Shown piece after piece: positions 29,566 to 58,027 of a DNA stretch of 64,000 nucleotides (position 1 is the first letter of the stretch; each line of letters starts with the position of its first letter). The notes below the pieces were generated by a model. That model saw only the letters and a list, made by a program, of their open reading frames with translations. It was not told the DNA's origin and did not search any database. This DNA comes from Coriolopsis trogii (lineage: Eukaryota; Basidiomycota; Agaricomycetes; Polyporales; Polyporaceae), in contig JAHYIO010000004.1 in NCBI GenBank assembly GCA_020543525.1, positions 1,364,001 through 1,428,000 on the forward strand, given 5' to 3'. The translations under genes and the position numbers were made by a program.

Positions 29566-30561
29566 CTAGTTTTCCGCCTCCTCTGGCCCGAGTCTCCTCT
29601 GCACTTTTTCCAGGACATAATCCCAATGATCTCCATACCCATCGTTTACGTCCCTCATCAGTGCACGGGATTGAATCTGCTCGACCTGTTGTTGGATGTA
29701 GTGACAATGTTCGACCTCGGCATCAACATACCTCCTGACGAGCTCATCCACCAACATAGTAGGCCCCACGTTCACAGGGCTCTCAGTGCCCCGGTTGGAT
29801 TGCTCGTCCAAGCCGGTGTCGGCCCGGTCGTCGTCCGGCTCGGCCGAGAGCTCCTCCTCCCCTCCAAAAAACTCTGCCGCAAAAAAACGGGCCCACCAGG
29901 GAAGTCCCTGTAAGGCGACATCGGGGGGGTCCCTAGTGAAGAGGTGTTGTGACGTTGGGTCCGGTTCGTCATCCTCCCAGAACATCTCTTCTGCATGGAG
30001 GGGAGAGTGATGGTGCTCACGATAGGCGGCGGCTGGTTTCAGTTCCTCCTCACCAAACATCACGTCCGCACGGAGGGGCGATCCACTCCAGTCTTGATTG
30101 TCGGAGGACATTTTGGGGTTGTCGTCACCAAAGATCCCCTCCGCGCGGACGGGCGAGCGTGAACCGTGTTTACCAACTGGGGCGGGATCGTAGTTGTCCG
30201 TGCCAAAAACTGCATCGGCTCGGATGGGCGAGACGGACGCGTGTTCAGCAACCAGAGGCCAGTTGGTGTCGTCCTCGCCAAACAGTGCATCAGCACAGAT
30301 GGGCGAGCTGAACTCCTTGCCAGTCCCCAGGATGGAATCGGGAGCGTCCTCACCAAGAATTCTGTCGGCTTGGATGGGCGAGCCAGACTTCTCACCAACC
30401 CCTGTGTCGGGATTGGGACCGTCCTCACCAAAGATTACATCGGCTCGGACGGGTGAGCCGATTGAGTCTCCAGCAACCGGGCTCCGTTTAGAGACTGCCT
30501 GAAAAGAAAGGGCTCGGGCGGATGAGGGCTGTAGTTTTTTCGGTAACTTGGAGGGAGTTGC
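29566..30561 (-). pseudogene. Gene X, 3' part: SPxRADxxFGED tandem-repeat protein (severed)
   Basis: The frame is open from the Ty3 junction (30561) to the stop at 29566. Between about 30465 and 29975 it encodes seven imperfect repeats of 24-26 residues with consensus SPxRADxxFGED followed by an acidic/Asn/Pro linker (SPVRADVIFGED, SPIQADRILGED, SPIRADAVFGTD, SPLRADVMFGEE and others). An acidic region and a charged helical carboxy terminus (YVDAEVEHCHYIQQQVEQI) follow. The 5' part lies at 56001-58027 on the other strand; joining the two at the shared GCAAC keeps the frame and gives about 453 residues in total. The function is unknown; the family was not recognised. It cannot be expressed intact in the present arrangement. 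Confidence 0.7.
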
Positions 30562-31049
30562 TGTTAAGATCGGTCTAAGCGAGGGATGCTACGGCCTTCG
30601 AGCGCGCAGCGAGATGTCGCAAAGATGTGAAGAGTGAATAGAACACCGTTCTATTCGGAAGCTTGATGGTACAGATTAGGTAAACGAGGAGATCAAAGCT
30701 GGGGTTCCTTGATGGAAACCTTGGCTATTATATATAGTACAACGTAGCCTGCCATAAACAGTATAGTGTCGTGGCAGTACCATAGAAACGGAGTCATGAG
30801 GCTGCGGATGACTGAGCAGGGGTTATATATAGCTAAGCTGACAGATCTGGGTTTATATATAGATGGGCTGACTGAGCAAGGAGATATAGATAGCAAAGAT
30901 GATTAAGCATATGTAAAGGTGATGACGAAAAGACGAACGATGCATGCGGGAAGACAAAGAGTAAGCAGGATGACGACAAGGGACAGAGGACGCGACGAAA
31001 TGGTAAGGAACAAGACGATACTGGTCAGAAGTAAGGGTAGGTTGTAACA
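30562..31049 (-). repeat. 3' LTR of Ty3 copy 1
   Basis: 488 bp, TG...CA bounded on either strand. A TATATA-rich stretch (about 30725-30860) is the likely promoter region. It retains many CpG sites that are TpG/CpA in the 5' LTR. Confidence 0.9.
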
Positions 31050-31068
31050 TTACCCCCCTCTCAAGGCC
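31050..31068 (-). other. Polypurine tract of Ty3 copy 1
   Basis: On the minus strand GAGAGGGGGG followed by TAA directly abuts the 3' LTR, the expected position of the plus-strand primer. Confidence 0.7.
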
Positions 31069-31090
31069 GATGGTCCCCAGAGGCGTACTA

Positions 31091-32316
31091 GACCTGGTCG
31101 ACGTCGTCCATTGATGGCGCTGCATTGCCATTAAGAAACGTAGCGTTGGTTTGGGCGTCGTGTTGTTCTAGGAGGTTGTCATTGTTGACCTTGACGTCCA
31201 TCGCGTTGCTGTCCAACGACTCCCAAGTCGCATTGTTCGCGGCCGCCTCGTCCCACCTGCTCTCTGGAACGCCCCACCCCTCATCGCTCAGAGGGAGACG
31301 ACGAATGTTGATCCTCGTCACCCTGTCGACGACGTTTCCGTGGGCGATCCCCCCCCAGGGTCTCCTCGGCAGCAAGTCCCCCAACACTTGCATGATGTAG
31401 GGGTGCACTGCGAGGTGCCGCAGGGCGTCTTAGGCGACTCGGACGAGTCGCGCGTACGCGTCCTCCAGAGCCGCCAAGACGTGCCTCTGGTTCGCCCCCG
31501 AACTCTCGGCCAGCAGGATCCCTTGTTGGATCCCCGGCCCGATATGCACGTACTCTCGATAGGCTTGCACCCACCGGAGAGCCTCAGGGTACTCGGTCAA
31601 CCGCACCTCCACCGTTCCCTCCAAGTCCGGGTGCGCCAACACCCACCCCATGCGGTCATGGAGAGTCCCGTCGCTGTACAACCCAGTCTGGGGGCGGGGA
31701 AGGTGGTTGTAGGAGGGGAGCAGATTGCGACTGGAGCGAATAAATGAGGGTGTGGGTGGTTGCCGTAAGATGGACGAGTGCGTGTGTGAACCGGTAGAAC
31801 TCGGGGGAGGAAGAACAGGGGTAGTTGTTGTTGTGGCAGCGGTTGTTGCGGTTGCGGCGGCGGTTGCGGGAGTTCTGGGGTTGTTGCTGGTTCTGTTGGG
31901 GTTGCTGGTGGGGCATCGTGGTCGTGAGTGATGGTGAGGCTGGGGATATGTTCGAGGTTGGGGAGGTCGACAAATTCACCTGGAGACAGAGGAGGATTGT
32001 AGTGGGAATGGGGGTTCGGTTGGTGAGAGGTTGAAGCTGAAGAGAAAGGTGGAAAAGGGGGAGGAGGTATAAAATCAGATAAAAAAGAATGAATAGGAAT
32101 AGGTCGAGTGGGGAGGGGAGCCGTGATGAGACGAGAAGAGGAGGCTGTGGGAAGATGGGGAGCTGTAAAGGTTGAAGGTTCTGGGGAGGTAGGAAAATAT
32201 TGAGGGCTTGTTGGAGGGGGAAGAGGAGTAGGATTATAAGGAGGACTTGGGGGAGCATCGTAGTCGGGGTATTGGAGTTCACCCGGAATGGTAGGTGGAA
32301 AAGAAAAGTGGGACAT
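31091..32316 (-). CDS. Ty3 ORF3: conserved post-integrase protein of unknown function
   Basis: The frame starts MSHFSFPPTIPGELQ at 32316 with a long Pro/Ser/Gln-rich region. After a probable intron near 31700 it continues with GWVLAHPDLEGTVEVRLTEY, a block I recognise from ORF3 of other mushroom Ty3 elements. It ends ...NAAPSMDDVDQV at about 31091. An in-frame TAA occurs at about 31430. The function is unknown; its conserved position between integrase and 3' LTR suggests a selected role in the element. Confidence 0.5.
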
Positions 32317-32324
32317 GGTTTCGT

Positions 32325-33245
32325 TCAGGCCATTCTGTGTCGTTTTTTATAGGCTTTTAGGATTGTTTGTGCGTGTTTGAGGTCCCTTTCCCGTAGCCAT
32401 TGGTTCTCGTAAGAAGGCTGACCCTTCCATATGACTAAGTATTGGACTCCGCCTCTGGCCGGTTTCCAATGATTAATGATCGCTTCTATTTCCCATTCTT
32501 CTTCTCCGCCGATGATTTCCAGTGGTAGGGATTGGTAATTCGGCCCATGTTCCACTGTTTCGTGATATGGGGTGAGTAATGCCACATGGAACACCGGGTG
32601 GATCTTCCATGATTTAGGTAATTGAAGTCGCACTGTGACAGGTCCCATTACATTGTCAATTATAAAGGGTTCTTCTTGTTTTGGTGCTAGTTTCCAATTT
32701 GGGTATGGTAATTTGAGATTCGTGGATTCAAGGTAGACTTTGTCTCCTTTTTTGAACTCATAGTTCCCTCCTGCATACCGTTTGGCCATGGCCAGATTGG
32801 CTTTGTCATGGCTTGCCAAAGCTTGTTTACGTTGTTCCTGCAGGTCTGCTAATCTTTCCTCTGTGCTAGGGTGTTTCACCGCTGGCCTGGTTGTTGGTAG
32901 AGCCTTCAGTTGATATCCCATGAGTAATTCAAAGGGTGATCGGTTGGTGACTGAATGGGTGCGATGGTTGTGTGCGAATTCAAATTGCGCTAATTTGTCG
33001 CTCCATGTGTCCGGGTAGTTTCCGCAGTATATACGCAATGCAACTTCTATTTCTTGTATCGTTCTTTCCGACTGGCCATCAGTTTGTGGATGGTGTGATG
33101 TGCTCAATACTCCTTTTACTCCGATTAGGGTATTCAATTCCTGATATGCTTGTGAAATGAATTGAGGGCCTCTATTGGAGATAATTCGGTCTGATAAACC
33201 GAATTGTTTGTATACGTCTTGCTCCAGCATCTTGGCTGTGTCCAT
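32325..33245 (-). CDS. Ty3 integrase carboxy half with chromodomain (copy 1)
   Basis: This frame continues pol after a one-base frameshift near 33250. It holds the rest of the integrase core (SNRGPQFISQAYQEL, HHPQTDGQSERTIQEIE with the catalytic Glu), the GPY/F-like module (GDKVYLEST, GPVTVRLQLP, HPVFHVALL) and a carboxy-terminal chromodomain (VQYLVIWKGQPSYENQWLRE). The chromodomain would direct insertion to modified chromatin. The second catalytic Asp, normally in SDRGPQF, is Asn here, so integrase should be inactive. Copy 2 has the same substitution. Confidence 0.88.
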   Translation of the reverse strand: MDTAKMLEQDVYKQFGLSDRIISNRGPQFISQAYQELNTLIGVKGVLSTSHHPQTDGQSERTIQEIEVALRIYCGNYPDTWSDKLAQFEFAHNHRTHSVTNRSPFELLMGYQLKALPTTRPAVKHPSTEERLADLQEQRKQALASHDKANLAMAKRYAGGNYEFKKGDKVYLESTNLKLPYPNWKLAPKQEEPFIIDNVMGPVTVRLQLPKSWKIHPVFHVALLTPYHETVEHGPNYQSLPLEIIGGEEEWEIEAIINHWKPARGGVQYLVIWKGQPSYENQWLRERDLKHAQTILKAYKKRHRMA

Positions 33246-35967
33246 GGCACTGGTTGCATGCTGTCAACACAATAGCTTTAGTTACGTCATGATCAACTAC
33301 CACTTGTATTGCGTCAAAGCCATTGGATTCTGGTAGAGCTGTGACGTAATCCATGGTGATAGTACTGAATGGTCGAAGATTGTGTGCATGTGGAATCGGC
33401 ATTAATCCGGTTTTGGTAGGATGTGTGTTGACTTTTGCTGTTTGACAAGTCGCACATCCCTTGACATATTGGGTGACGAAGTGGCGCATATCCAGCCACC
33501 AGTATTCTCTTGATGCCAGTTCGTACGTTTTCTGGATGCCTGGATGTCCCATTACTGCGGGATTGTGATGCAGTCTGACCACTTCTTGTCGAAGATCAAG
33601 ATTTGGTGGTACGTATACCCTCCCCTTAAACATCACGATGCCGTTGTCCATTTTCCAATCTTCATTGTTGCCGATAAGTGGCTTTTTCTTGAGATGCCAC
33701 AGGTTGTTTGTAGATTCCATGACTATACGATCCCTTGATGTTGTATCCCGAATTCTTTCTTGTAGTTTGATGTTGATGCTGTTAACAAATAATTCGTTAG
33801 GTAGCAAGGTTACTTCTTCGTTGTCATGATTTCCTGGGTCATGGTCCGCTCTTCTTGACAGAGCGTCCGCTTGAGTTATTGTTTTGCCTGGTTGGTGTAT
33901 TAATTGGACGTTGAATTGTGACAAATATAGACTCCATCTTGCTTGTTGTCGGTTTAATTTCTGTGCTGATCTGAAGTAAGTCAAATTCTTATAGTCCGAT
34001 AGGATTTGCACTGGATGTTTTGCACCTTGAAGGTAATGTCTCCATGCTTCCAGTGCTCGGATGATTGCTAGTAATTCTCTGTCATAGATCTGGTAATTTC
34101 TTTCTGGTTCAGAAAATGTTTTAAAAAGATAGGCGCAAGGATGCCATAGCCCATCAGTCCCTAATTGTCGTAATACTGCCTCTGTTGCCACCTTGGAGGC
34201 ATCACATTCAATTTGGAATGGTCTTTCGACGTCGGGTATTTGTAGAATAGATGCTTCTTGGAACTTGGCCTTAAGTGTATCAAATGCTTTTTGACATTCT
34301 TGCGACCACTCAAACTTTTGCCCCTTTCTTGTTAGTTCGGTTAATGATTTTGCCAGATGAGAATAGTTCTGAATGAATCTTCTATAGAAATTTCCAAACC
34401 CTAGAAAACTTTGCACTTGTTTGATGGTAGTTGGTATCGGCCATTGGGCTAGACCTTCCAGTTTAACTGGGTCCATTGTGATTTGTCCTGGTTTGATGAT
34501 TGCTCCTAGAAATTCAACTTCTGTTACCTCAAATTCACATTTTTCTGCCTTGAGATAGAGATCATGTTCTCCGAGTCTTTTAATTACTAGTTCGGTTCTT
34601 TTCCGATATTCTGGAATAGTTTGAGAAAATATCAGTATATCGTCCATGTAGATTACTATCCATCCTTCAGATAGGTAGTCCCGGAAAATGTCGTTCATCA
34701 TGGCTTGGAATGTGGCTGGTGCGTTGCATAGCCCAAAGAACATAACGGTGGGCTCGAATAGTCCTCTCGGTGTTTTGAATGCTGCTTTCCACTGGTCCCC
34801 ATCTTTGATGCGAACATTATTGTATCCAGCTCGTACGTCTAGTTTGGAGAAAATCTTGGCTTCTGCCAGTTGGTCTGTTAAGTCTGAGATCAGTGGTAGT
34901 GGATATACATTTTTTATTGTCCCATCGTTTAGATAACAATAATCTTGAATTGGCCGCATGCTTCCATCCTTTTTCTGGACAAAGAAGAAAGGGGAAGCCA
35001 TGGGTGACTTGGATGGTCGGATATATCCCTTTGCTAGATTTTCGTCTATAAATTTGTCGAGTTCCTTTCTCTCCATTAGGGATAATGGATATATTTTGCA
35101 ATCCTTTGGTTTGAATTCCGGTTTTAGATCTATTGCATGGTCCCATGGTCTTGAGTCTGGGAACCGTTCCGCTGACTTCTTTTCGAATATGTATTTGTAT
35201 TGATGAAGGTATTCTGGCAGAAATTCTTTTGGATCTCGTGTATTTTTGTTCTGCATTGCTTGAATGGCCAGTTCCGTTGCTTTGGTGACTCGGTTAACAA
35301 ACAGGCTAGCCTGGTTTTGCTTCTTCCATAGTTTCCCGATAGTTGCACTTCCAGATTGACTCCATCGGTCTTCCTCTTCCCATGCCTCGATTTGGTTATA
35401 GGCAATTACTCCATCTTGTGATCCGGAAACGGAAGTTGTTTCCAATCCCCACATGAGTACTCCTGGGGGTGGTTCATGCCTTTTCTGATAATCGCGGATC
35501 ATCTGTTGCCTTTTGACCAATCTGGGATCGAATTGGAATATACCGGTAGTCCAGTCTATTTGGGGATTATACTTCTTGATCCATGGTACCCCTAATATGG
35601 CATTGTCTCTCCCGAGATTGGCAACATAGAAATTGGTAGGTAGACTGTGACCTCGAATAATGAAGTTGGTTTCCAGTCGATGAGTTACTGTTCCAATGGT
35701 GTTAATGCTATTGTCCGCATTCCGAAATCGAATTGGGTGGGGTAGCCGAGTTGTAGATAAATGATATTGATCAATGATTTGTTGATTGATGATTGTTGCA
35801 TCGGCTCCTGAGTCAAACAGAGCCTTGATTCCGACGACTTTGGGGCCATTTTCGATGTAACCAGTTAATAGATATGCTGATTTTTTTGATTCGCCAATTG
35901 TTACAAAGGAAATAGTGTAGTCCCAAATTTCAGACGATCCCGGCGTCGGGGCGAGTCGTCCTGTCAA
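33172..35967 (-). CDS. Ty3 pol: protease, RT, RNase H, integrase amino half (copy 1)
   Basis: About 930 residues in the -1 frame relative to gag. In order: protease (LFDSGADATIINQ), RT (FSKLDVRAGYNNVRI, FGLCNAPATFQ, catalytic YMDDILIFS), RNase H (PFQIECDASKVATEAVL, YDRELLAIIRALE), integrase zinc domain (HHNPAVMGHPG...CATCQ) and the start of the integrase core (first Asp in TMDYV). The usual RT motif DYRxLN reads DYCYLN here, an Arg to Cys change. The frame breaks near 33250 and the integrase resumes in the next frame. There is no ATG at the start; the first codon read is TTG, so it is probably a frameshift product. Confidence 0.92.
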   Translation of the reverse strand: MTGRLAPTPGSSEIWDYTISFVTIGESKKSAYLLTGYIENGPKVVGIKALFDSGADATIINQQIIDQYHLSTTRLPHPIRFRNADNSINTIGTVTHRLETNFIIRGHSLPTNFYVANLGRDNAILGVPWIKKYNPQIDWTTGIFQFDPRLVKRQQMIRDYQKRHEPPPGVLMWGLETTSVSGSQDGVIAYNQIEAWEEEDRWSQSGSATIGKLWKKQNQASLFVNRVTKATELAIQAMQNKNTRDPKEFLPEYLHQYKYIFEKKSAERFPDSRPWDHAIDLKPEFKPKDCKIYPLSLMERKELDKFIDENLAKGYIRPSKSPMASPFFFVQKKDGSMRPIQDYCYLNDGTIKNVYPLPLISDLTDQLAEAKIFSKLDVRAGYNNVRIKDGDQWKAAFKTPRGLFEPTVMFFGLCNAPATFQAMMNDIFRDYLSEGWIVIYMDDILIFSQTIPEYRKRTELVIKRLGEHDLYLKAEKCEFEVTEVEFLGAIIKPGQITMDPVKLEGLAQWPIPTTIKQVQSFLGFGNFYRRFIQNYSHLAKSLTELTRKGQKFEWSQECQKAFDTLKAKFQEASILQIPDVERPFQIECDASKVATEAVLRQLGTDGLWHPCAYLFKTFSEPERNYQIYDRELLAIIRALEAWRHYLQGAKHPVQILSDYKNLTYFRSAQKLNRQQARWSLYLSQFNVQLIHQPGKTITQADALSRRADHDPGNHDNEEVTLLPNELFVNSINIKLQERIRDTTSRDRIVMESTNNLWHLKKKPLIGNNEDWKMDNGIVMFKGRVYVPPNLDLRQEVVRLHHNPAVMGHPGIQKTYELASREYWWLDMRHFVTQYVKGCATCQTAKVNTHPTKTGLMPIPHAHNLRPFSTITMDYVTALPESNGFDAIQVVVDHDVTKAIVLTACNQCHGHSQDAGARRIQTIRFIRPNYLQ

Positions 35968-35972
35968 AAATC
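35964..35972 (-). other. Likely -1 frameshift site between gag and pol (copy 1)
   Basis: Gag ends GAT TTT TGA; slipping back one base on the five-T run gives GAT TTT TTG ACA, which is exactly the pol frame. The P-site Phe tRNA can re-pair perfectly. The same site is in copy 2. Reinitiation is the alternative explanation. Confidence 0.5.
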
Positions 35973-37457
35973 CTTCTCGTTATAGTCAGTTGACTCAGAA
36001 CCGATGGCCTCAATATAGGCTTCTTCCGTTGGTTCTCCTTCTTCTTCTTCCACGACCCTAGCTTTCTGATTGGGAACCCTCTTCTTCTTTGGACATTGTG
36101 CCACTTGATGTCCTTCTTCTCGGCAATAGAAGCACGCATTACGTTGCATGAGATCTTCACGCATCTTCTGGTCTAGCCGATTAGTAATAATTGCTCGGAC
36201 GGTGGGATTTCTCGTAAACCTTCCTCTAAAATTGGTGTTGCGTTCCATCCCTAGTCTTATTCTTCGGCTTCCCTGGACTTCGTCTATGGCCAGGTTCCGA
36301 GTATAGGAGTGTTGTAATTCCGTGACCCGATCAAACCAATCGGTTATGGTTTGAACTCTTGGATGGATGAGCGCCACTTGTTGTCGGAGATAATGTGGGA
36401 GTTTGAGTTGATAAATTGCTAGCAATGCCGTGTCTTTTTTGATGTCGGCTAGCTGGCTAAGTTGCACAAATTCCGCATGGAACTTATCAATGATCTTGTA
36501 GTTGTAGAATTTGAGATTCGTGAGTTGAACTGATGCTACCACTTTTTCCTTGATTGGTGCAAAAACCGCAAGGAATCGGTTTTCAAAAGCTTCCCATGTT
36601 CCTAGTCCTTTGGAGATTCCAATGGCCTTCTTTTCCTGGGCGACCCATACCAGGGTGTCGACCCACCATTCTGCTTTTCCGCCGATATATGAGAGTGCCG
36701 TGACAATTCTGGCACAATTAGTGACATAATCGCTTGGCCTTCCTTCGAATAGAAGGTACAGGTCTCGCAGGAATTGCCGCGCTTCTTCCCTTTTCCCTTC
36801 AAATAGTCTCAGTTCTTTGACCCGAGCTTTGCCGGCTATTTTGGGAATGACAAATTGGTCTTTGTTGCCGCCAATGCCATCATCTGATGGGTCTTCATCC
36901 GGTTCTTCTGGACCTCCTGGGCCTTGGGGCGCTTCAGGACCTTCTGGTCCGTGGGGTCCGCCAGGGCCTTCTGGGTCTCTGGGACCTCCTGGTCTGTGAG
37001 GTCCTTCTGGACCTCCAGGGCCTCCTGGTTCTTCTGGACGTCGTCGTCCTTCTCGCCATTCTCTAAGTTCTTCTTCGTCTTCTCGATCCAGTCTTGCCCT
37101 TGTTTGCCTTGCTTCTTCAGCAGCCATGGCCAGTAATCCGCGTGGTTCTACTTCCGGTTGGGATGATTCTTCTGATGCGTGCCGTACTAGTGATGAGATG
37201 GAATACGTTGCCGACATCTCGGGTACTAGCGTGGGATCCGTTGGTTGGATAATGATAGTTTCTGCTTCCCTGTCTGATTCTTCTGAAGAAGAGTTCCCTT
37301 TGGCTGGTCCTTCTGCCGTGGGAGGTTCTTCTGCTTGTGGTTCTGGTTCAGGTAGTGATGATCTTCTGATTTCCGGTGTATTAGCGATGGGAAGTGGTAT
37401 GTTTGATTTCCCTGGGGTTGGTGCTGGAGTTCGATTTCTGGATACTACCCTTGCCAT
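35964..37457 (-). CDS. Ty3 Gag polyprotein (copy 1)
   Basis: 497 residues from ATG at 37457 (MARVVSRNRTP). It has an acidic Pro-rich amino region and a collagen-like run of GPx/GGP triplets around 36880-37030 (about residues 143-195). The retrotransposon gag capsid domain follows (FLRDLYLLFEGRPSDYV, FENRFLAVFAPIKEK), then a zinc knuckle CFYCREEGHQVAQC near 36140-36100. It packages element RNA in virus-like particles. The frame is intact. Confidence 0.9.
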   Translation of the reverse strand: MARVVSRNRTPAPTPGKSNIPLPIANTPEIRRSSLPEPEPQAEEPPTAEGPAKGNSSSEESDREAETIIIQPTDPTLVPEMSATYSISSLVRHASEESSQPEVEPRGLLAMAAEEARQTRARLDREDEEELREWREGRRRPEEPGGPGGPEGPHRPGGPRDPEGPGGPHGPEGPEAPQGPGGPEEPDEDPSDDGIGGNKDQFVIPKIAGKARVKELRLFEGKREEARQFLRDLYLLFEGRPSDYVTNCARIVTALSYIGGKAEWWVDTLVWVAQEKKAIGISKGLGTWEAFENRFLAVFAPIKEKVVASVQLTNLKFYNYKIIDKFHAEFVQLSQLADIKKDTALLAIYQLKLPHYLRQQVALIHPRVQTITDWFDRVTELQHSYTRNLAIDEVQGSRRIRLGMERNTNFRGRFTRNPTVRAIITNRLDQKMREDLMQRNACFYCREEGHQVAQCPKKKRVPNQKARVVEEEEGEPTEEAYIEAIGSESTDYNEKDF

Positions 37458-37689
37458 AGGTTTTATGTATTTCGTTCCGCTTGGTTGGTCGTTCTTAGTT
37501 GGTTTGAAATAGGGTGCTCAAATTCCCTCAGGCAGTGGTGGTCCTTCTAGCAGCCTATTTGGACAAGGCTGGTATGTGCAAGTTCCCCACTCTGCGTTCA
37601 TGATGTGGTAATAGACGTCTTTGGATGTGTTTCTGTTGTACCGATGTAACTTCTGGCTGCACGTTAGGTTTGTTACCCAACTCATCCAC

Positions 37690-38300
37690 TAATGCTGATG
37701 GGGATAGATAGGAGTGTCGAGTTCCCACTCGATGATTAGGTTCCTTGCTGCAATGTGTTCCTGGTAGCAACGGAACAACGGATGGTCCTCTCTTCTGGGC
37801 AAATAAGTATCGGTTATGTCAATGATATTGAGAAGATCAGCGATCTGTGATTCAAGCCAAGCTTGGAACGTTGGATTGGGAAACAGAGATGGCAGATATT
37901 GGAAATGACCGTAAACGTATCGGTGTGCTTCCAAAGCGTGATAGGCCACGTATCGCAATTCTACTCCTGTTTGGCTGTCTATTTGCAGGTGTTATCGCAC
38001 GTAGTTTTCCAGAATCTGGGTGTTATGCTGGACAAGACGGATCTGGTTTTCCAACCACTCCCAATCATAGATAGTGGGTACTGAATTCCCGGAACTTGAA
38101 GTTCTGATGCTTCTTTTGGTAAAGATTCCCCATGTGGATTCTTCAGCTAAGATCCATTCTTCTTCTTCTATTGTTCGTGCCCTGATATCTGGGGTTCTTT
38201 TGTCTATGACCGTGCCTAAGAATCCTGACTGGCTTCCTGTTGATATGTTGAGCCTTCTGCTAATCCTGTATGTTGCGGATTGTAGCGTTTGAGCTACTCT
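37690..38300 (-). CDS. Ty3 ORF0 upstream of gag (copy 1)
   Basis: Between the 5' LTR and gag the minus strand has a mostly open frame of acidic helical character: IDKRTSDIRARTIEEEEW, then IYDWEWLENQIRLVQHNAQI, YVAYHALEAHRYVYGHFQYL and FQAWLESQIADLLNIIDITD. It ends near 37690. One in-frame stop (TAA) separates the two halves at about 37992. It resembles short helical proteins preceding gag in other mushroom Ty3 elements; the function is unknown. Confidence 0.45.
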
Positions 38301-38358
38301 CCTTCGGAGACTTGTCCTTGCACCGTCGGTGGGTGAGGAATCCAGAGCTTCGATCTAA

Positions 38359-38846
38359 TGTTAAGATCAGTCTAAGCGAGGGATGCTACGGCCTTCGAGC
38401 ACGCAGCGAGATGTCACAAAGATGTGAAGAGCGAATAGAATACTGTTCTATTCGGAAGCCTGATAGTACAGATTAGGTAAACGAGGAGATCAAAGCTGGG
38501 GTTCCTTGATGGAAACCTTGGCTATTATATATAGTACAACATAGCCTGCCATAAATGGTATAGTGTCATGGCAGTACCATAGAAACGGAGTCATGAGGCT
38601 GTGGATGACTGAGCAGGGGTTATATATAGCTGAGCTGACAGATCTGGGTTTATATATAGATGGGCTGACTGAGCAAGGAGATATAGATAGCAAAGATGAT
38701 TAAGCATATGTAAAGGTGATGACGAAAAGACGAACGATGCATGCAGGAAGACGAAGAGTAAGCAGGATGACGACAAGGGACAGAGGACGCAACAAAATGG
38801 TAAGGAACAAGACAATACTGGTCAGAAGTAAGGGTAGGTTGTAACA
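38359..38846 (-). repeat. 5' LTR of Ty3 copy 1
   Basis: 488 bp, closer to the LTR of copy 2 than to its own 3' LTR at several sites. The sequence following it internally (TTAGATCGAAGCTCTGG on the minus strand) shows no clear tRNA primer-binding site starting TGG at the LTR edge. Confidence 0.9.
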
Positions 38847-46521: not shown

Positions 46522-46741
46522 TGAGGTGTACGTCCCATGGGGATCTCCAACGTGCAAGATGTTTTGGTCATACACATCGTGTTCAACGCTGAACAGCGCA
46601 TAATCGAGCATGGCTAAGCGGATCGGCCCGGGATGCGACCCATTGGGTTGAACGTCGAGCATCGACAGGGGTCTATTCGGGTACCGGTTGCACTTCAAGG
46701 AGCAACCCATGTGCCTTGCATAAAGAGCCATCAATGCTGTA

Positions 46742-47164: not shown

Positions 47165-47848
47165 CTAGTTTCCAAGCTCCGGATCATGATCCACCTGCAT
47201 CAGCTCCTTGTCATCCAAGCCGAAATCCCGTTGACTTGCCGGCACTCCGGTTGCATTGAACTTGTCGTCCACGCCCTCCTCCAGCTCAGGCGGCGGACTC
47301 TCGGGGCTATATGCCCGCTCCTTCCCCTTGCTCTTCGCCTTCTTCTTGTGGCGGCACGCCTTTTGCGAAAGGCCTGTGGACGACGACAAGGGAGTCGACT
47401 GAGTGGGAGGTGGTGTGGGCGTGGAAGGGAGGAAGAGAGGCCCCGAACCGTGACTGCGTCCGGCAGCAGATGTGGTGGGGAGGCCCTCCTCCAATGTGAA
47501 GATTTGGTCCATGAGGACATCCATCGCCCGCGCCTGCTGCTTTTGCTCCTCCACTACACGGCTCTCCATCTCCCTCTTCTCGGCCTCCATGTCCCTGACC
47601 TTAATGTTGAGCTGGAGGACGTGGTTGAGCAGGAGGATGGTCGTATCCTCGAGCCACACGATGTATTCACGCACGTCATCCATCTCAAGTGGCCTCTCCA
47701 TGTCTTCTACAGCCTTGATGAGGTCGTTGAGATTGTCGTCGCCTTCCGCAGACGTCGACAGGCCCGCTAGGGCCTCGTCGCGTGCCGGCTGACGTTCGGG
47801 CGGAGGGTGCATCGCTTCGACAGCCGGGATGCTATCCCAGCAGCCCAT
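47165..47848 (-). pseudogene. Gene Y, 3' part: coiled-coil carboxy-terminal region
   Basis: The open frame runs MGCWDSIPAVEAMHPPPERQ to ELMQVDHDPELGN. A long charged helix (NDLIKAVEDMERPLEMDDV, NIKVRDMEAEKREMESRVVE) is followed by a Ser/Pro-rich, Lys-rich tail. It lies on the same strand as the 5' part of gene Y (55738 to 53974) with the TIR element and palindrome in between, so I infer that it is the next exon of that gene. The first codons may be intron sequence. Confidence 0.5.
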
Positions 47849-47960
47849 TTAGTAAGAATATACTATATGCTGTACCCCTCGGCAGTGCTAATGCACTGTC
47901 TGGGCGTGGCACGCGGCACCGCGTGGTCGGGTCGTGGGAACCTGTGGGGTGTTCCGCGCG

Positions 47961-49171
47961 CACAGCGGGTGACTGTGCTCCAGTCCACCCCACCCAGTCG
48001 GTGTCTATCTGCGGTGCTCGAGTTGTCGAACAAGTCCGTCCGATTTGCACCCATGCCCGACCCGAACGCACCCCCACCTGCACCCCACGCACCCACCACC
48101 ACCGTTCCCCAGGGTGAACCGTCCAGCGAGGGTCAATGAAATTTGACCCTGAAGATTCCACCTCGTCCACCATCCATCCCCTCCTCCGCAGCGCCACCCA
48201 CGCCTACCCCATCCCGTCGACAATCCTTTGTCGCAATCTCGGCTGCTGCCCCTTCCCCAGCCATTCACCCGGCTCCGGACCCGGAGGCCCAACCTACGTC
48301 GTCCGGGATGATGACACGGTCTCAGAGGGGATTCACGTCCAACGCACTCCGTCATCGTCCCTAAGCCAAAAAAAATGTGCTCAACCACAATCACAAGGGA
48401 CCTCGCTAATCTATCGGGCCTTGGACTTGGATAATCCTTTGGTAGACGACTGGTTCTGACCGGTGCAATTTTTTATTTTTTTCATCTTTTTCTCCATCTC
48501 ACCAGAATACGCCAGCCAATCAAGTGCTCTCACTGCAAAACACGTGGACTGCTGTGTTTGGTCAACCTGGGGAACAGACCAACATGCAATGGATGCGCTG
48601 GGGGCAAGATCACCTGCTCCTTCAGCCCCTCGTTCCAGACCGGCCCCGACAAGGCGACGTACCGGCTTTATTGCTGGTTCAAAGACGCCTCCCTGCAAAA
48701 AAGGCACCCCAGGGAATATCATCAAAACAGCGACTTCGCCAAGATGCCCATTCCAGATTGGTGGGAGAACGGGTTTTTCGACGTGTACAAGAAAAAAAGG
48801 GAAGTCCCCAATAAGGATTTAGAGGGAGCCGAGCCGCGGGCCGGGCCGGCGCCCGAACTGGTGGCCGAGCCGGTGTCGCCATCCACCCACACGTTGGCCA
48901 AGAAACGCAAGAAGTCCCACTCAGTGTCAAGTGGCACTGATGTGGATAGCCCTCAGGTATATTGTGTTCTTTTTTTATGTATTGATTTGCTAACATCATG
49001 AATAATGTCTAGTCGAAGAAGAGTGGTCCGGGCCCTGCAAAACGTGCCCGGCCGACACATGGCATTCAGAGGGTGGAACCGGACGATTGTGAGTATCTAT
49101 CACGGTATTTTTTTTTTTCAATTTTACTTACCACCCGCTTGTCCTGGGGACTGGGATCACTCGATTCAATA
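47961..49171 (+). pseudogene. Inverted duplicate fragment of gene Y
   Basis: Mirror copy of 53974-55184 lacking the first exon. It includes the disordered segment FAPMPDPNAPPPAPHAP, an in-frame TGA at 48137, TRSQRGFTSNALRHRP, and the Zn2Cys6-like cluster (48525-48617: Cys spacing 2-6-9-2-6), then WENGFFDVYKKKREV. It is cut at 47961, where E-element terminal sequence begins, so it has no start. Confidence 0.7.
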
Positions 49172-49883
49172 GGAATATACTATATGCTGTGTCCCTCGGC
49201 GGTGCTAATGCACTGTCTGGGCGTGGCACGCGGCGCCGCGCGGTCGGGTCGTGGGAACCTGTGGGGTGTTCCGCGCGGGTGGTCGGCCGGGAGGCATAGT
49301 GGTGAGCCGCGCGGACCGGGTATGGGTGAGTGATCAGGTGGTGGTCCGGGGTAGGGGTACCAGGTTATCATTGATATAGACCTGTTCTGACGACTCGGAC
49401 TATCTGTAGATATCTGTACAGTGTATGTAGGTATTGTAAATAGTAATCAACCATTTATTGCACATTTTGAAGAGACACAAGGGCAGGAAAGGTGCGCCAG
49501 AGCGGTCCGGGTAGGAGGTCCGGGTGGCGGCTGGTGGTCCGGGTGACATAGGGATGCCTGCGGACACCTTGGGCAAGTTGTGAGGGCTGATTGTGTTCCG
49601 GGAAACCTGGTTTGAATGGCTTTTGTGGCCTGGGTAAGTAGTTCCAGCCAGCAGGGGGTGGGGGAAAGGGGTCAGTTTACCTTTGGCCAGCCGGCTTATT
49701 TGGCGGCTCGGATGGATAGCTGATATTTCTACAAGCTTATTGGATTTGGCATGGCATTCTGCAGCTGTAGAAGTGCATCTGCAAGCCAGAATGAAATATA
49801 GTGGTGTGCGGAATAGTGAACCGAGCGGTGTTGGACCAGTGCTGTCTGATGTTCCGCGCGGTGTTTGCCAGCCAGTATAAGCA

Positions 49884-50105
49884 GTGCAGCGCGGCTGGTT
49901 GATATATATGGTAGTGTGTACCGCGCGGGCAGTTAATGTATATAATAAGATGTACCGCGCGGCTGGCTGATATATATGATGAGGTGTACCGCGTGGCTGG
50001 CTAATGTATATGATGAGGTGTACCGCGCGGCTGGCTGATATATATAATACAGTGTACCGCACGGTTGGTTGAAGTACATGATCCGGTGTTCCGCGCGGCC
50101 AGTTG
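49884..50105. repeat. Tandem array of about 42-bp units in element E (mirrored at 53040-53261)
   Basis: Five to six units with core TGTACCGCGCGGCTGGCTGA followed by TATATATGATGAGG-like AT-rich sequence. Each unit alternates a GC palindrome and an AT-rich stretch. Confidence 0.75.
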
Positions 50106-50119
50106 GCATACAGACTGTG

Positions 50120-50470
50120 TAGATGGCTCAGTGGTAGTGGAACATGGCCGGTCTGCCCATAACTGATGCAATTCCTGACCTGACGGTCTGTAAGTTGGCA
50201 CACATACGTCCGAGTATGATCCGGACCGGTGTACAAATTTTGGCGGTGGACCGAGATGTTCTGGTCAAGATGCGGCTGCCGGACCGAGCGGGTGGCTCAG
50301 CGGTAGCAAGACATGGCCGGTCCACCCATAACTACTGCAATTCCTGACCGGATGGTCTGTAAGTTGGTATATATATGTCCAAGTATGATCCGAACTGGTG
50401 TACAAGTTTTGGTGGTGGACCGAAGTAGTTCGGTAGAGATGCGGCTGCCGGACCACGCGGTCGGCTCAGC
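50120..50470. repeat. Two direct units of about 175 bp in element E (mirrored at 52675-53025)
   Basis: Each begins near GGTGGCTCAG(C/T)GGTAG and contains ACATGGCCGGTC, CCATAACT, CAATTCCTGACC, GTATGATCCG and GATGCGGCTGCCGGACC. The units are diverged by roughly 15 percent by eye. Confidence 0.65.
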
Positions 50471-53400
50471 CTTGGCTAGACAACCTAATCTGGCAATCTG
50501 GCGCTTATCTGACAGTCTAGATGAGCGCTTTGTAGTCACTGTATATGGTATATGCCTGTATATGTAGTGATGTCATTACTTATGAGTGCTTTTTCAACAC
50601 CCAAATGCGGTAGGCCCCCAATTTGGGTGCATTCTTGGATACTTCATAACTTTCTTAGTTCTTGGCCGATTGCCATGGTTGTGAATGTATCAGGTGTGTA
50701 ATTGGATTCCCTTTTGTATGATATACCTTGCTAGCATGTAGTGCAAAAATCTGTGGTAGATATGTGCAAATAGTATGCCAAACCACTATAAGCAGGTACC
50801 TGCTTGCTTTACTACATGCAAGATGGGGCATAGAGCTCCATGAGCACAGTATCATTATATAGTATATTACTAGGGCTTTCTATTGCATGTTTTTGCATTG
50901 TGATACCTGTAGTATTGAGCAAGATATGGCTACTTCGCATTTGACAAGAAATGGGAGCTCTGTTTGGCTGATTATGGAAGGTAAACTAGATATTCTGCTG
51001 TTCCCCATACACAAACACACTTGCATAAGCCAGAGCTCTCAGATTATACACATTTTGTGGCAATCTATGAAGGTTCACACACCCTCTCCTCCTCCCTCCC
51101 TTCCCATCAAATACATCATGGTGTCCGAGTTTGGCAAGATATCCCAAAACTACTCGGCACATCTTTAGATATTATACACACCCATTACTGTACAAAATTG
51201 CAGAGCTCTAACATCTCTGCCCACAATGCTGTGTTGCATGCAATATTGTAAGAGACCAAATATTCTCAAGAGGATAGCATTACAACCAGTGCATATATTC
51301 ACATGGTTCTTTTTGCACTATTTCTATATACTATGCGGCTATGTGACTCCTGATTTTTGGAGGCTTATGTGCACCCGATCTCTTAGCCATCCCTTATCTG
51401 TGTTCGCAATAGATTGTACTATAGTATTAGATCGGGGTGGCCAATAGGTTCATATGTCTCAGATAGAGCACTCCTAGCATAGTACTACAAGATGCAAAAA
51501 CCCGCCAGGGAATAGGGGAAGTATTTGTGAAGGTGCGTCAAATTGGTGGTTTAGCAAGGGTAGGTTCGCCATTGTGCATGTCAAAGAGCATTCGAAGCAC
51601 CTTTTCTCATATCTCCATAACCACATCATCTATTCCCTGGCGGGTTTTTGCATCTTGTAGTACTATGCTAGGAGTGCTCTATCTGAGACATATGAACCTA
51701 TTGGCCACCCCGATCTAATACTATAGTACAATCTATTGCGAACACAGATAAGGGATGGCTAAGAGATCGGGTGCACATAAGCCTCCAAAAATCAGGAGTC
51801 ACATAGCCGCATAGTATATAGAAATAGTGCAAAAAGAACCATGTGAATATATGCACTGGTTGTAATGCTATCCTCTTGAGAATATTTGGTCTCTTACAAT
51901 ATTGCATGCAACACAGCATTGTGGGCAGAGATGTTAGAGCTCTGCAATTTTGTACAGTAATGGGTGTGTATAATATCTAAAGATGTGCCGAGTAGTTTTG
52001 GGATATCTTGCCAAACTCGGACACCATGATGTATTTGATGGGAAGGGAGGGAGGAGGAGGGGGTGTGTGAACCTTCATAGATTGCCACAAAATGTGTATA
52101 ATCTGAGAGCTCTGGCTTATGCAAGTGTGTTTGTGTATGGGGAACAGCAGAATATCTAGTTTACCTTCCATAATCAGCCAAACAGAGCTCCCATTTCTTG
52201 TCAAATGCGAAGTAGCCATATCTTGCTCAATACTACAGGTATCACAATGCAAAAACATGCAATAGAAAGCCCTAGTAATATACTATATAATGATACTGTG
52301 CTCATGGAGCTCTATGCCCCATCTTGCATGTAGTAAAGCAAGCAGGTACCTGCTTATAGTGGTTTGGCATACTATTTGCACATATCTACCACAGATTTTT
52401 GCACTACATGCTAGCAAGGTATATCATACAAAAGGGAATCCAATTACACACCTGATACATTCACAACCATGGCAATCGGCCAAGAACTAAGAAAGTTATG
52501 AAGTATCCAAGAATGCACCCAAATTGGGGGCCTACCGCATTTGGGTGTTGAAAAAGCACTCATAAGTAATGACATCACTACATATACAGGCATATACCAT
52601 ATACAGTGACTACAAAGCGCTCATCTAGACTGTCAGATAAGCGCCAGATTGCCAGATTAGGTTGTCTAGCCAAGGCTGAGCCGACCGCGTGGTCCGGCAG
52701 CCGCATCTCTACCGAACTACTTCGGTCCACCACCAAAACTTGTACACCAGTTCGGATCATACTTGGACATATATATACCAACTTACAGACCATCCGGTCA
52801 GGAATTGCAGTAGTTATGGGTGGACCGGCCATGTCTTGCTACCGCTGAGCCACCCGCTCGGTCCGGCAGCCGCATCTTGACCAGAACATCTCGGTCCACC
52901 GCCAAAATTTGTACACCGGTCCGGATCATACTCGGACGTATGTGTGCCAACTTACAGACCGTCAGGTCAGGAATTGCATCAGTTATGGGCAGACCGGCCA
53001 TGTTCCACTACCACTGAGCCATCTACACAGTCTGTATGCCAACTGGCCGCGCGGAACACCGGATCATGTACTTCAACCAACCGTGCGGTACACTGTATTA
53101 TATATATCAGCCAGCCGCGCGGTACACCTCATCATATACATTAGCCAGCCACGCGGTACACCTCATCATATATATCAGCCAGCCGCGCGGTACATCTTAT
53201 TATATACATTAACTGCCCGCGCGGTACACACTACCATATATATCAACCAGCCGCGCTGCACTGCTTATACTGGCTGGCAAACACCGCGCGGAACATCAGA
53301 CAGCACTGGTCCAACACCGCTCGGTTCACTATTCCGCACACCACTATATTTCATTCTGGCTTGCAGATGCACTTCTACAGCTGCAGAATGCCATGCCAAA

Positions 53401-53973
53401 TCCAATAAGCTTGTAGAAATATCAGCTATCCATCCGAGCCGCCAAATAAGCCGGCTGGCCAAAGGTAAACTGACCCCTTTCCCCCACCCCCTGCTGGCTG
53501 GAACTACTTACCCAGGCCACAAAAGCCATTCAAACCAGGTTTCCCGGAACACAATCAGCCCTCACAACTTGCCCAAGGTGTCCGCAGGCATCCCTATGTC
53601 ACCCGGACCACCAGCCGCCACCCGGACCTCCTACCCGGACCGCTCTGGCGCACCTTTCCTGCCCTTGTGTCTCTTCAAAATGTGCAATAAATGGTTGATT
53701 ACTATTTACAATACCTACATACACTGTACAGATATCTACAGATAGTCCGAGTCGTCAGAACAGGTCTATATCAATGATAACCTGGTACCCCTACCCCGGA
53801 CCACCACCTGATCACTCACCCATACCCGGTCCGCGCGGCTCACCACTATGCCTCCCGGCCGACCACCCGCGCGGAACACCCCACAGGTTCCCACGACCCG
53901 ACCGCGCGGCGCCGCGTGCCACGCCCAGACAGTGCATTAGCACCGCCGAGGGACACAGCATATAGTATATTCC

Positions 53974-55738
53974 TATTGAATCGAGTGATCCCAGTCCCCA
54001 GGACAAGCGGGTGGTAAGTAAAATTGAAAAAAAAAAATACCGTGATAGATACTCACAATCGTCCGGTTCCACCCTCTGAATGCCATGTGTCGGCCGGGCA
54101 CGTTTTGCAGGGCCCGGACCACTCTTCTTCGACTAGACATTATTCATGATGTTAGCAAATCAATACATAAAAAAAGAACACAATATACCTGAGGGCTATC
54201 CACATCAGTGCCACTTGACACTGAGTGGGACTTCTTGCGTTTCTTGGCCAACGTGTGGGTGGATGGCGACACCGGCTCGGCCACCAGTTCGGGCGCCGGC
54301 CCGGCCCGCGGCTCGGCTCCCTCTAAATCCTTATTGGGGACTTCCCTTTTTTTCTTGTACACGTCGAAAAACCCGTTCTCCCACCAATCTGGAATGGGCA
54401 TCTTGGCGAAGTCGCTGTTTTGATGATATTCCCTGGGGTGCCTTTTTTGCAGGGAGGCGTCTTTGAACCAGCAATAAAGCCGGTACGTCGCCTTGTCGGG
54501 GCCGGTCTGGAACGAGGGGCTGAAGGAGCAGGTGATCTTGCCCCCAGCGCATCCATTGCATGTTGGTCTGTTCCCCAGGTTGACCAAACACAGCAGTCCA
54601 CGTGTTTTGCAGTGAGAGCACTTGATTGGCTGGCGTATTCTGGTGAGATGGAGAAAAAGATGAAAAAAATAAAAAATTGCACCGGTCAGAACCAGTCGTC
54701 TACCAAAGGATTATCCAAGTCCAAGGCCCGATAGATTAGCGAGGTCCCTTGTGATTGTGGTTGAGCACATTTTTTTTGGCTTAGGGACGATGACGGAGTG
54801 CGTTGGACGTGAATCCCCTCTGAGACCGTGTCATCATCCCGGACGACGTAGGTTGGGCCTCCGGGTCCGGAGCCGGGTGAATGGCTGGGGAAGGGGCAGC
54901 AGCCGAGATTGCGACAAAGGATTGTCGACGGGATGGGGTAGGCGTGGGTGGCGCTGCGGAGGAGGGGATGGATGGTGGACGAGGTGGAATCTTCAGGGTC
55001 AAATTTCATTGACCCTCGCTGGACGGTTCACCCTGGGGAACGGTGGTGGTGGGTGCGTGGGGTGCAGGTGGGGGTGCGTTCGGGTCGGGCATGGGTGCAA
55101 ATCGGACGGACTTGTTCGACAACTCGAGCACCGCAGATAGACACCGACTGGGTGGGGTGGACTGGAGCACAGTCACCCGCTGTGGAGCATCGTCTGGGCA
55201 GGATAGGCTGGGGCCGACCGTCATTGTTGCCCAGGTGCCCGATGCCTAATGGGAACACAGGACTTGGGCCGATGAGGAGGCAGTCGGTGCAGAGACCGCC
55301 AGCCCACGAATACTACTTGCAGGATGAGCGACCGCTGGATAGTGCTCAAAAGAAAATTCTATCAACCCAATAAAATAGAAAATACTCACCTGGACGTGTC
55401 CACCATCCTTGCACAATAGGCGGCTCGTGGTATTCCTTGTCCAACATGAACAGACAGCTGATCCAGTCTGGCATGCCCTCGAGATCGATCGCATCCAAGT
55501 CTATCTCGCGGCCGGGTCGCTGAAAGGCCAGATTGTTCTGATGAAGTAGTGCGGTGACAAATGGAGGAACGAGCGTTGGAGACTGTATGCCTTTTGCGGT
55601 GGTGATGAGGGACTTGAGCATGGTGGAGAATTGTAACGCCCATGGCGCCCGGTCCGGATAGGCGACCGAAGGACGCTTGCGCCACGCGCAGAGGCATTGA
55701 AAAGCCAGCTCATTGAGTGCAGAGTTGCAGGCAGCCAT
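53974..55738 (-). pseudogene. Gene Y, 5' part: Zn2Cys6-like protein interrupted by element E
   Basis: Exon 1 (55738 to about 55391) encodes MAACNSALNELAFQCLCAW and ends DKEYHEPPIVQGWWTRP at a GTGAGT donor. Later exons encode a Pro-rich disordered region with an in-frame TGA at 55008-55010, then a cysteine cluster C-x2-C-x6-C-x9-C-x2-C-x6-C (54620-54528). That spacing fits the Zn(II)2Cys6 binuclear cluster of fungal DNA-binding proteins, although the basic residues between cysteines differ from classical members. The last exon before the insertion reads GPGPAKRARPTHGIQRVEPDD, with a donor after it; element E sits in that intron. The 3' part is at 47165-47848. Intron limits in the middle were not all fixed. 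Confidence 0.55.
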
Positions 55739-56000
55739 AGGAAGAATACAGGAGAGTATAGGTTGGCGAACAGAGGGGAAAAGTTGAGCGGAGGGGTCAA
55801 TGGGAGACCTCGAGTCTTAACAGTGGTCGCCGTCCAAAGTCCTCTATTCTAGACGCCCATATCCAGCCGGGCCGAAAAAGAAAGCGCACGCATGGACCAG
55901 GTATTCCACATTCATTGTTCGACTTCAATGGTTCTCTGAGGTCCAAAAAAAACGAGACTTGCTTTGACTCCTCACCCTTCCTCCCATACGTTCGCCAAAC
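55739..56000. other. Short spacer between divergent genes Y and X
   Basis: 262 bp between the minus-strand start of gene Y and the plus-strand start of gene X; presumably contains both promoters. No motif was recognised. Confidence 0.35.
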
Positions 56001-56164
56001 ATGACCAAGGTTTGTGTCCTCTCCCAACGACGTCTGGGCCGAGCCACAGAGACTTATCCTCATGCATTTCTAGCCACACTACCCCCGCAAAAAGGGAAAA
56101 TCAAGGTCTTAAGCCCCAAGGGATACTGCAAACACCAAAACTGGGGTGACGAGTGGCAGCAGTA

Positions 56165-57784
56165 CAGTGGCTTACATAACTGTTTCCAAGATTGTGACTT
56201 TCCGACGAAAATGTATATATCTCTGTATATACCTGGTATATAAATATGCAATAAATTGCGTTGGATAGACCTGCTTCCTAGCTATTCAGCAAACAAAGTT
56301 TCATGCAATTCTGCCCAGACCTTGCTTAGATATTGAGCACTCTTTGGTTGCTACTCTTGGAAACAGTTTTGGAAGTGGTGCTGCAAAAAGGCATAATACA
56401 TAACTTTAGTACTTAGTATACCCTCCCTTTGCCCTCAATACAGCCTGGATCCTATCAGGCATACTCTCAATCAACTTCTGACACTTCTGAACTGAAATTG
56501 CCTCCCATTCCACCTGCACCCGCTCCCACAACTCCTTGATCGAGGTTGGTGGCTTTTCATACCCTGCGAGCTTGCGTTTAAGGACATCCCAGAGATGCTC
56601 GATGGGGTTGAGGTCAGGAGATTGTGGGGGCCACTCCATGACTTGAATCTTGTTCTCTTTGAAGCACCGTTTGGCCTTTTTGCTAGTATGCTTGGGGTTG
56701 TTGTTCTGCTGGAAGGTGATGTCATCGAGGTTGTAGTCCCAGTTGTAAAGGGAATTGAGCAGTTCATCCTCCATAATGTTGACATAGAGCTCCGTATCCA
56801 TGGGTCCAATGATCCTGCATGAATGGCCTGTCCCCTTCCACCCAAAACAGCCCCAAAACATCAGGTTTCCTCCACCAAACTTGAGGGTGCCATCCACAAG
56901 GCGGTCACTGAGCCCCTCTCCCTTCTTCTTCCACACATATTTCCTCCCATCTGACCCCACCCTGTTGACCTTGGTCTCATCTGACCAAACCACCCCCTTC
57001 CAGTCCTCCACAGTCCAGTCCTTCTTTGAGAGAGCAAAGGCATACCGCTTAGCCCTATGGGTAGCCTTGAGCTGAGGCCGTTTCTTCTTCACTACTGCCC
57101 TCATGCCTGCAACCTTGAGTGCACGACGGATGGTCTGGACAGAGATGTTCCCAAGGAAGGTATCCTTGATGCTTCGGTGGACTTCAACAGCAGTATCGGC
57201 TTTCCCGGTCTCGATAAGTCGGGTAGCATGTCGGATAGTGGTAGGGGAGAGAAGGGATGGACGGCCACCCTGAGACTTGGGCACCTCAGGACAGTGTTCA
57301 GAGCAAAGTTTGCTGATCTGACTCCTACTAACACCAGTCTGAGTGTGGATATGAGTGATAGAATGGCCCTGGCGGGCAAGGGAGATGATGTTGTTGACAG
57401 TAGTGTTGGAGAGAGGAGGATGCATGATGAGGGCAGGAAAGAAAGGTCTGCTCTACTGGCAGATGACCTGGTATGATGCTATTAAACATTACCTAACATA
57501 TTCTCACAGTACCATGTGACCTTTGCTACAGGATTGGCAATCCATTGAATTTATATGGGGGAGCCCAGCACCACTTCCAAAACTGTTTCCAAGAGTAGCA
57601 ACCAAAGAGTGCTCAATATCTAAGCAAGGTCTGGGCAAAATTGCATGAAACTTTGTTTGCTGGATAGCTAGGAAGCAGGTCTATCCAACGCAATTTATTG
57701 CATATTTATATACCAGGTATATACAGAGATATACACATTTTCGTTGGAAAGTCACAATCTTGGAAACAGTTATGTAAGCCACTG
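56165..57784 (-). mobile_element. Tc1/mariner transposon, 1620 bp, with 219-bp TIRs
   Basis: TIRs 56165-56383 and 57566-57784 begin CAGTGGCTTACATAACTG and are nearly identical. The element is flanked by TA on both sides (56163-56164 and 57785-57786), the Tc1/mariner target. A single transposase gene lies inside on the minus strand. TIRs of 219 bp are long for the family. Confidence 0.93.
56406..57425 (-). CDS. Tc1-type DDE transposase with a substituted catalytic Asp
   Basis: 339 residues, uninterrupted. Amino-terminal helix-turn-helix motifs (TVNNIISLARQGHSITHIHT and a second around RRALKVAGM) form the paired-like DNA-binding region. Catalytic motifs are VVWSDETKVN (first Asp), FQQNNNPKHTS (second position) and QSPDLNPIEHLW (third, Glu, DD34E spacing). 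Family members have FQQDN at the second position; here the Asp is Asn (a GAC to AAC change), which should abolish cleavage. The open frame and near-identical TIRs indicate a young copy, perhaps mobilised in trans. Confidence 0.92.
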   Translation of the reverse strand: MHPPLSNTTVNNIISLARQGHSITHIHTQTGVSRSQISKLCSEHCPEVPKSQGGRPSLLSPTTIRHATRLIETGKADTAVEVHRSIKDTFLGNISVQTIRRALKVAGMRAVVKKKRPQLKATHRAKRYAFALSKKDWTVEDWKGVVWSDETKVNRVGSDGRKYVWKKKGEGLSDRLVDGTLKFGGGNLMFWGCFGWKGTGHSCRIIGPMDTELYVNIMEDELLNSLYNWDYNLDDITFQQNNNPKHTSKKAKRCFKENKIQVMEWPPQSPDLNPIEHLWDVLKRKLAGYEKPPTSIKELWERVQVEWEAISVQKCQKLIESMPDRIQAVLRAKGGYTKY

Positions 57785-58027
57785 TATGTCCCCTCTGCCG
57801 ATGGCACAATGGTTCAGCGATCTCCTCACTGAGCAAACAGAGCCGAACCGTCCCCAAACCCACTCCTGGTCCCCAGTGGGCCGGACGTTTCCAGCCTTGC
57901 CGATCTCAAACTGGCAGGAGAAACGTGTCGCTGAGGTGTGTAATGACCATAGCGCAGTTAACCTCTCACAATCTGACCACCCGATTCCCTCCAGTATACC
58001 GGCACGAACAAAGGCGACCAAGGCAAC

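Follow-up and report, generated by a model that had tools for sequence, protein, structure and literature searches.

Recombination between oppositely oriented copies of a transposable element inverts the segment between them and leaves chimeric copies with exchanged target duplications at its ends (PMC3355041). For the BuT5 inversion 2s of Drosophila mojavensis, such exchanged duplications were taken as proof of ectopic recombination (PMC3355041), and Galileo-generated inversions of Drosophila buzzatii, e.g. 2z3, show the ectopic-recombination signature (PMC2775673). In plants, dating by long terminal repeats (LTRs) is disturbed by gene conversion (PMC7251063). A further class of elements, the TET/JBP-bearing Kyakuja transposons, is described from Agaricomycotina (PMC12730594, 2025); two Laccaria families are reported there with 7-bp target duplications and CA..TG ends, and without terminal inverted repeats (TIRs). 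We describe a 19.2-kb segment of the Coriolopsis trogii genome which lies between two opposed copies of a Ty3 retrotransposon, inside a Kyakuja-like KDZ DNA transposon with a TET/JBP-like gene. The window, that is the whole stretch of DNA analysed, is 64,000 bp long (C4:1364001-1428000, in an assembly of 38.8 Mb in 39 contigs). Hydrophobin matches, of which there are 39, suggest a mushroom-forming fungus. Positions without a contig prefix are those of the window.

Exchanged target duplications at two opposed Ty3 copies

In the assembly, the segment between the two Ty3 copies is almost certainly inverted relative to the ancestral order (Table 1). This had been proposed in the preliminary description and is now upheld by the exchange of the target duplications, by two split genes whose parts line up only after the segment has been turned back, and by six sister KDZ genes which are uninterrupted. 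The breakpoints are occupied by two homologous Ty3 copies in opposite orientation, copy 1 on the minus and copy 2 on the plus strand. Both copies are 8,285 bp long and can be aligned without a single indel; they differ at 64 positions (99.2% identity), 63 of the differences being transitions. Their LTRs are 488 bp long with the termini TGTTACAACC...GATCTTAACA. The final 2.3 kb of copy 2 is outside the window, which holds its part 58028-64000.

Read in element orientation, copy 1 is preceded by GAGCC and followed by GCAAC, and copy 2 is preceded by GCAAC and followed by GAGCC. The flanks GTTGC, GGCTC and GCAAC had been reported before and are found exactly as written. The fourth flank had been predicted blind, as GAGCC at about 66313-66317 after copy 2, and is present at that place, just outside the window. 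Thus, both 5-bp target duplications are exchanged. Two 5-bp stretches at given positions would both match exactly with a chance of ~(1/1024)^2 or ~1e-6, if equal base frequencies are assumed. Exactly the same swapped duplications would be produced by the assembler if the chromosome were in the ancestral order and the 19.2-kb loop had been joined the wrong way between the inverted repeats. We consider such an error unlikely, but to be taken seriously, and return to it below.

Matched 5-bp duplications are normal for this Ty3 family. At least 42 LTR matches were found in the genome; because the DNA searches score the best candidates only, this and all other copy numbers are lower bounds. Apart from copies 1 and 2, flanks were judged for nine copies with two LTRs, seven solo LTRs and two older solo LTRs. 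Truncated or fragmentary matches were excluded, and for the diverged LTRs L030, L062 and L064 the start was placed 2-4 bases beyond the match. Flanks were identical in six of the nine two-LTR copies (one further copy has one mismatch and two are unmatched) and in five of the seven solo LTRs, the other two having one mismatch. One of the older solo LTRs has identical flanks, the other unmatched ones.

A Pfam search with copy 1 revealed gag with a CCHC motif, reverse transcriptase, RNase H, the integrase zinc domain and a chromodomain. The gag match (23.3 bits) is slightly below the cut-off of 24.1, and integrase is seen by its zinc domain only. Both the domains and the 5-bp duplications fit a Ty3/Metaviridae chromovirus, to which we assign copies 1 and 2.

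Table 1. Coordinates of the host transposon, the Ty3 copies with their target duplications, and other features of the locus.
Feature	Position	Strand	Remarks
Host KDZ (Kyakuja-like) DNA transposon with TET/JBP-like gene	26552 to C4:1438827		48,276 bp; runs past the window
Host target duplication TGTATTT	26545-26551 and C4:1438828-1438834		identical 7-bp flanks
Host long imperfect terminal repeat	26582-28011	+	inverted partner C4:1433513-1434926, 78% identical
Gene X, 3' part	29566-30561	-	open frame; acidic SPxRAD repeats
GTTGC	30557-30561	+	half of Ty3 target duplication A
Ty3 copy 1	30562-38846	-	LTRs 30562-31049 and 38359-38846
Inverted segment	38847-58027		19,181 bp; exchanged duplications, KDZ continuity, collinear blocks in sister copies
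GGCTC	38847-38851	+	half of Ty3 target duplication B
KDZ transposase piece	38847-39083	-	PF18758 positions 101-174, 41.0 bits, E 2.3e-10
CxC2 cysteine cluster associated with KDZ transposases	39710-40303	-	PF18803, E 7.8e-22
TET/JBP-like 2OG-Fe(II) oxygenase exon	41387-41686	-	PF12851, E 1.8e-4; HxD and distal H visible
Palindrome	47961-55184		arms ~3,555 bp with 1 mismatch, centre ~114 bp
Non-autonomous element with host-transposon ends	~49157-53988		inside palindrome
Tc1/mariner-type element	56163-57786	-	221-bp inverted ends; adjoins gene X 5' part
Gene X, 5' part	57801-58027	+	exon 1 to ~57935, likely intron 57936-57994, exon 2 start
GCAAC	58023-58027	+	other half of Ty3 target duplication A
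Ty3 copy 2	58028-66312 (C4:1422028-1430312)	+	5' LTR 58028-58515
GAGCC	C4:1430313-1430317		partner half of duplication B, right after copy 2, outside window
Next KDZ transposase piece	C4:1430318-1430500		beyond copy 2; PF18758 positions 176-217, 21.1 bits, E 2.9e-4

Interrupted genes and their sister copies

The insertion site of duplication B (site B) lies within the KDZ transposase gene, as the flanks take up successive positions of the transposase profile. The match beyond copy 2 is below the curated cut-off of 26.6 bits. For the left flank, the genome contains six close copies with 84-85% amino acid identity and a distant one (42%) on C8. Among the matches listed, the right flank is found at the DNA level directly beside the same six copies (76-77% identity). 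In all six, left and right flank are contiguous and overlap by exactly 5 bp, which is how an unoccupied 5-bp target looks. The distant copy was not reached by the right-flank DNA search and is omitted from this count.

At the site of duplication A (site A), the flanks derive from one gene, here called gene X, which was split by Ty3. When they are joined, the open frame ...ARTKATKA-T-PSKLPKKLQPSS... is obtained. A restored reading frame had been a main argument of the preliminary description. The frame is indeed open across the join; part of the open stretch, however, is probably an intron, as GT...AG signals are located at ~57936-57994 and a short intron is present at the same place in the sister genes. 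The Ty3 site would then be near the start of exon 2. Because of the probable intron, the frame is weaker evidence than it looked, and it is demoted from main proof to support. Its place is taken by the sister copies, which are the stronger evidence. Six further genomic copies of the 3' part of gene X (331 residues) were found. In four of them (L037-L040), the two parts are adjacent, with matches to the 5' part upstream of the 3' part at 52-57% identity over 46-47 residues; beside the 3' part of the remaining two (L036 and L041), the 5' part had no match.

Gene X is the accessory gene of the host transposon and encodes acidic SPxRAD-type repeats and a conserved C-terminus. The 3' part had no Pfam match. 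In a protein collection which may be poor in fungi, no homologue at E <= 0.001 was found for the 331-residue piece among 2827 candidates, nor for residues 330-424 of a sister copy among 46 candidates.

The order of the segment itself was compared with the sister transposons, using a list of matches which omits the place of the query and is hence incomplete. The first 7,261 bp of the segment were found as a single block in five sister copies and as two pieces (1-5927 and 6890-7261) in a sixth copy on C36, at 68-70% identity throughout. The next blocks fall within 8,338-8,817 in five copies and within 16,537-17,102 in four. Strand and order of the blocks are constant, so that the segment, though inverted here, is collinear with its sisters. 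Gene X and the KDZ gene occur together at five places in the genome, 11 to 26 kb apart and in divergent orientation. Turning 38847-58027 back gives this gene order, which the present order does not match.

Signs of exchange between the two Ty3 copies

The LTRs of one element are identical at insertion. Within copy 1 as well as within copy 2, they now differ at 19 of 488 sites (3.9%). Between copy 1 and copy 2, in contrast, the internal regions differ at only 40 of 7,309 sites (0.55%). We aligned 11 Ty3 copies (the copy on C39 is shorter, 6,921 bp), which gives 55 pairs. The ratio of internal to mean LTR divergence is 0.14 for copies 1 and 2 and at least 1.51 for the other 54 pairs; copies 1 and 2 are the only pair with an internal divergence below the mean LTR divergence. 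Further, at eight LTR sites the two 5' LTRs share one base and the two 3' LTRs another. Among the other copies, the base of the 5' LTRs is the less common one at seven of these sites, in one case by only seven to 11. As LTRs start out identical, bases shared by the 5' LTRs of independent insertions require a later exchange.

The longest identical run between the copies is 2,137 bp (element positions 2363-4499), a length which was not reached when the 64 differences were placed at random 20,000 times. With the majority of the nine other copies as reference, C>T or G>A is the derived change at 58 of the 64 differing positions. A CpG/TpG context was found for 39 of the 64, compared with a CpG share of 17% among the G+C positions. 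This bias is characteristic of the decay of methylated cytosines. The differences between copy 1 and copy 2 thus look like real mutations, and they are present on both copies. Homogenised copies and shared 5'-LTR bases together argue that the copies recombine in vivo.

The same data bear on a misassembly. Two repeats of this length and identity with a 2,137-bp identical core would favour a wrong join, and the divergence between the copies declines towards the middle, as it would with a blended consensus. Blending, however, would hardly interleave private mutations with shared 5'-LTR bases over tens of bases, as is observed here. In addition, the 10 contigs listed, of 39, span 0.8-4.6 Mb, which suggests long reads.

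By zone, the divergence of the two copies is 0.05% in the middle, 1.6% in the 5' LTR and 3.3% in the 3' LTR. These steps suggest more than one round of exchange and would suit a segment which is flipped recurrently, with the culture or a partner nucleus carrying the other orientation. We regard the coexistence of both orientations as very unlikely, since no observation requires a reversal and the second arrangement was not assembled. Each flank of site A has one full-length match in the assembly and hence no second allele. Among the matches listed, site B likewise has no second allele but only diverged sister copies, none above 85% amino acid or 77% DNA identity. A reading in which the Ty3 copies are a long-lived recombination pair that keeps exchanging sequence and can repeatedly flip the TET/JBP-bearing core, both orientations segregating in the species, appears unlikely.

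Several points weigh against an inversion by crossover in the living fungus. The copies are most alike in the middle and diverge most at their ends, a pattern which gene conversion and consensus blending would both give. Chimerism was assessed as for Galileo: no LTR site groups the ancestral pairs and one (site 328) groups the present pairs, and the LTR differences are 19 + 21 for the ancestral compared with 19 + 19 for the present pairs. Homogenisation of the copies may mask chimerism. Exchange alone is no proof of crossover, as non-crossover exchange leaves the same homogenised copies. Finally, the evidence comes from one assembly of one strain.

Undetectable chimerism is also predicted, for identical copies, by the aberrant transposition of a hybrid element. 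This mechanism, or breaks inside the copies followed by end joining, would do without a Ty3-Ty3 crossover. We consider both so improbable as to be negligible. The copies are full length with no indel between them, so that end joining would need breaks at matching positions, and Ty3 moves via complementary DNA and integrase and not as a cut-and-paste hybrid, which speaks against hybrid-element transposition.

Other Ty3 copies of the family show unusual surroundings. A copy with fully unmatched flanks (CAGGC/GGATG; L050, C4:669407-677741) has an oppositely oriented neighbour 12 kb away (C4:648-657k). The two share a patch of 1.2% divergence at element positions 4501-6300, the remaining segments being 4.5-21% divergent. 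In this second pair of inverted neighbours, too, exchange may have taken place. At C34:2262944-2281846 (L051-L053), one arm of a second palindrome (arms 8,721 bp with six mismatches, spacer 1,461 bp) stops exactly at the 5' LTR end of a Ty3 copy whose flanks, TGTTT/CATGG, do not match. On C36 (9202-11919; L054, L055), two LTRs are separated by 1.7 kb, a plus-strand 3' LTR at 9202-9689 and a minus-strand 5' LTR at 11432-11919; for neither was a full-length partner LTR seen.

The host transposon and its other contents

The host transposon has the termini CAGCCC...GAGTG. As its outer 7-bp duplication is intact, the flip is internal to it. Five sister copies have CA..TG ends and 7-bp duplications, four of them exact and one with one mismatch; three of these copies are ~20-21 kb long, the others 27 and 34 kb. 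Like the described Kyakuja families, the host carries a KDZ transposase domain (PF18758, in two pieces). It also has CxC2 (PF18803), and it shares the 7-bp duplication and the CA..TG ends with the five sisters. The Laccaria families reportedly lack TIRs, whereas long imperfect inverted ends are found here (sister transposons L068-L077), and for this reason we use the label 'Kyakuja-like'. The right end of the host, from C4:1434927 to ~C4:1438800 (L003, L004), is interrupted by further repeats. Stretches just after the right terminal repeat recur at many genomic places, and a 2.4-kb part of the right end is a 98% match to C20:2063455-2065892.

The TET/JBP-like exon is a weak match to its profile (21.3 bits, curated cut-off 34.9). 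Relatives of the non-autonomous element in the palindrome are located at four or more other places (C5, C4:658k, C25, C9), and those on C5 and at C4:659k align across the palindrome centre in one block. About 1.2 kb of flank outside the element is likewise inverted and duplicated. We rejected the palindrome as the cause of the flip, the breakpoints being exactly at the Ty3 ends. That it is purely an assembly artefact is doubted in view of the related elements at four other places, two of which span its centre. The Tc1/mariner-type element has an open transposase frame (56406-57425) with matches to DDE_3 and HTH_Tnp_Tc3_2.

Probable origin and comparison with known systems

The inversion probably arose through a crossover of the Ty3 copies in the living fungus. 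Two independent Ty3 insertions in opposite orientation entered a TET/JBP-bearing, Kyakuja-like KDZ transposon, insertion A (GCAAC/GTTGC) into the accessory gene and insertion B (GAGCC/GGCTC) into the transposase gene. Homologous recombination between these 8.3-kb copies would have followed, the crossover most plausibly being located in the identical 2,137 bp. It would have inverted the 19.2 kb between the copies and swapped half of each target duplication. We infer both the single crossover, as opposed to an assembler turning the segment, and its position.

The mechanism and its signature are already known, and we make no claim to a first Ty3-mediated inversion in fungi. What is new is an unusually well-controlled example of a retrotransposon-mediated inversion, with two independent duplications, two broken genes and uninverted sisters in one genome. 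It shows that nested retrotransposons are able to scramble a large TET/JBP transposon. It is also a warning that such repeat-flanked places need checking against reads, and that LTR dating can fail once copies convert each other, as the internal and LTR divergences of copies 1 and 2 illustrate.

Among the described systems, TET-bearing Kyakuja elements (PMC12730594) resemble the host in having a KDZ transposase and a TET/JBP-like gene, 7-bp duplications and CA..TG ends. The Coriolopsis trogii family differs from the Laccaria families by its long imperfect TIRs, and the copy described here is cut by several insertions and internally inverted. The BuT5 inversion 2s (PMC3355041) is alike in its exchanged duplications; its reference is another species, Drosophila virilis, while sister transposons of the same genome serve here. 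Galileo inversion 2z3 (PMC2775673) also has copies in opposite orientation at the breakpoints and exchanged target duplications. The present case differs in that LTR retrotransposons of a fungus are involved, that the 19 kb lie within one host transposon, and that no chimerism was detected between the Ty3 copies, perhaps owing to their homogenisation.

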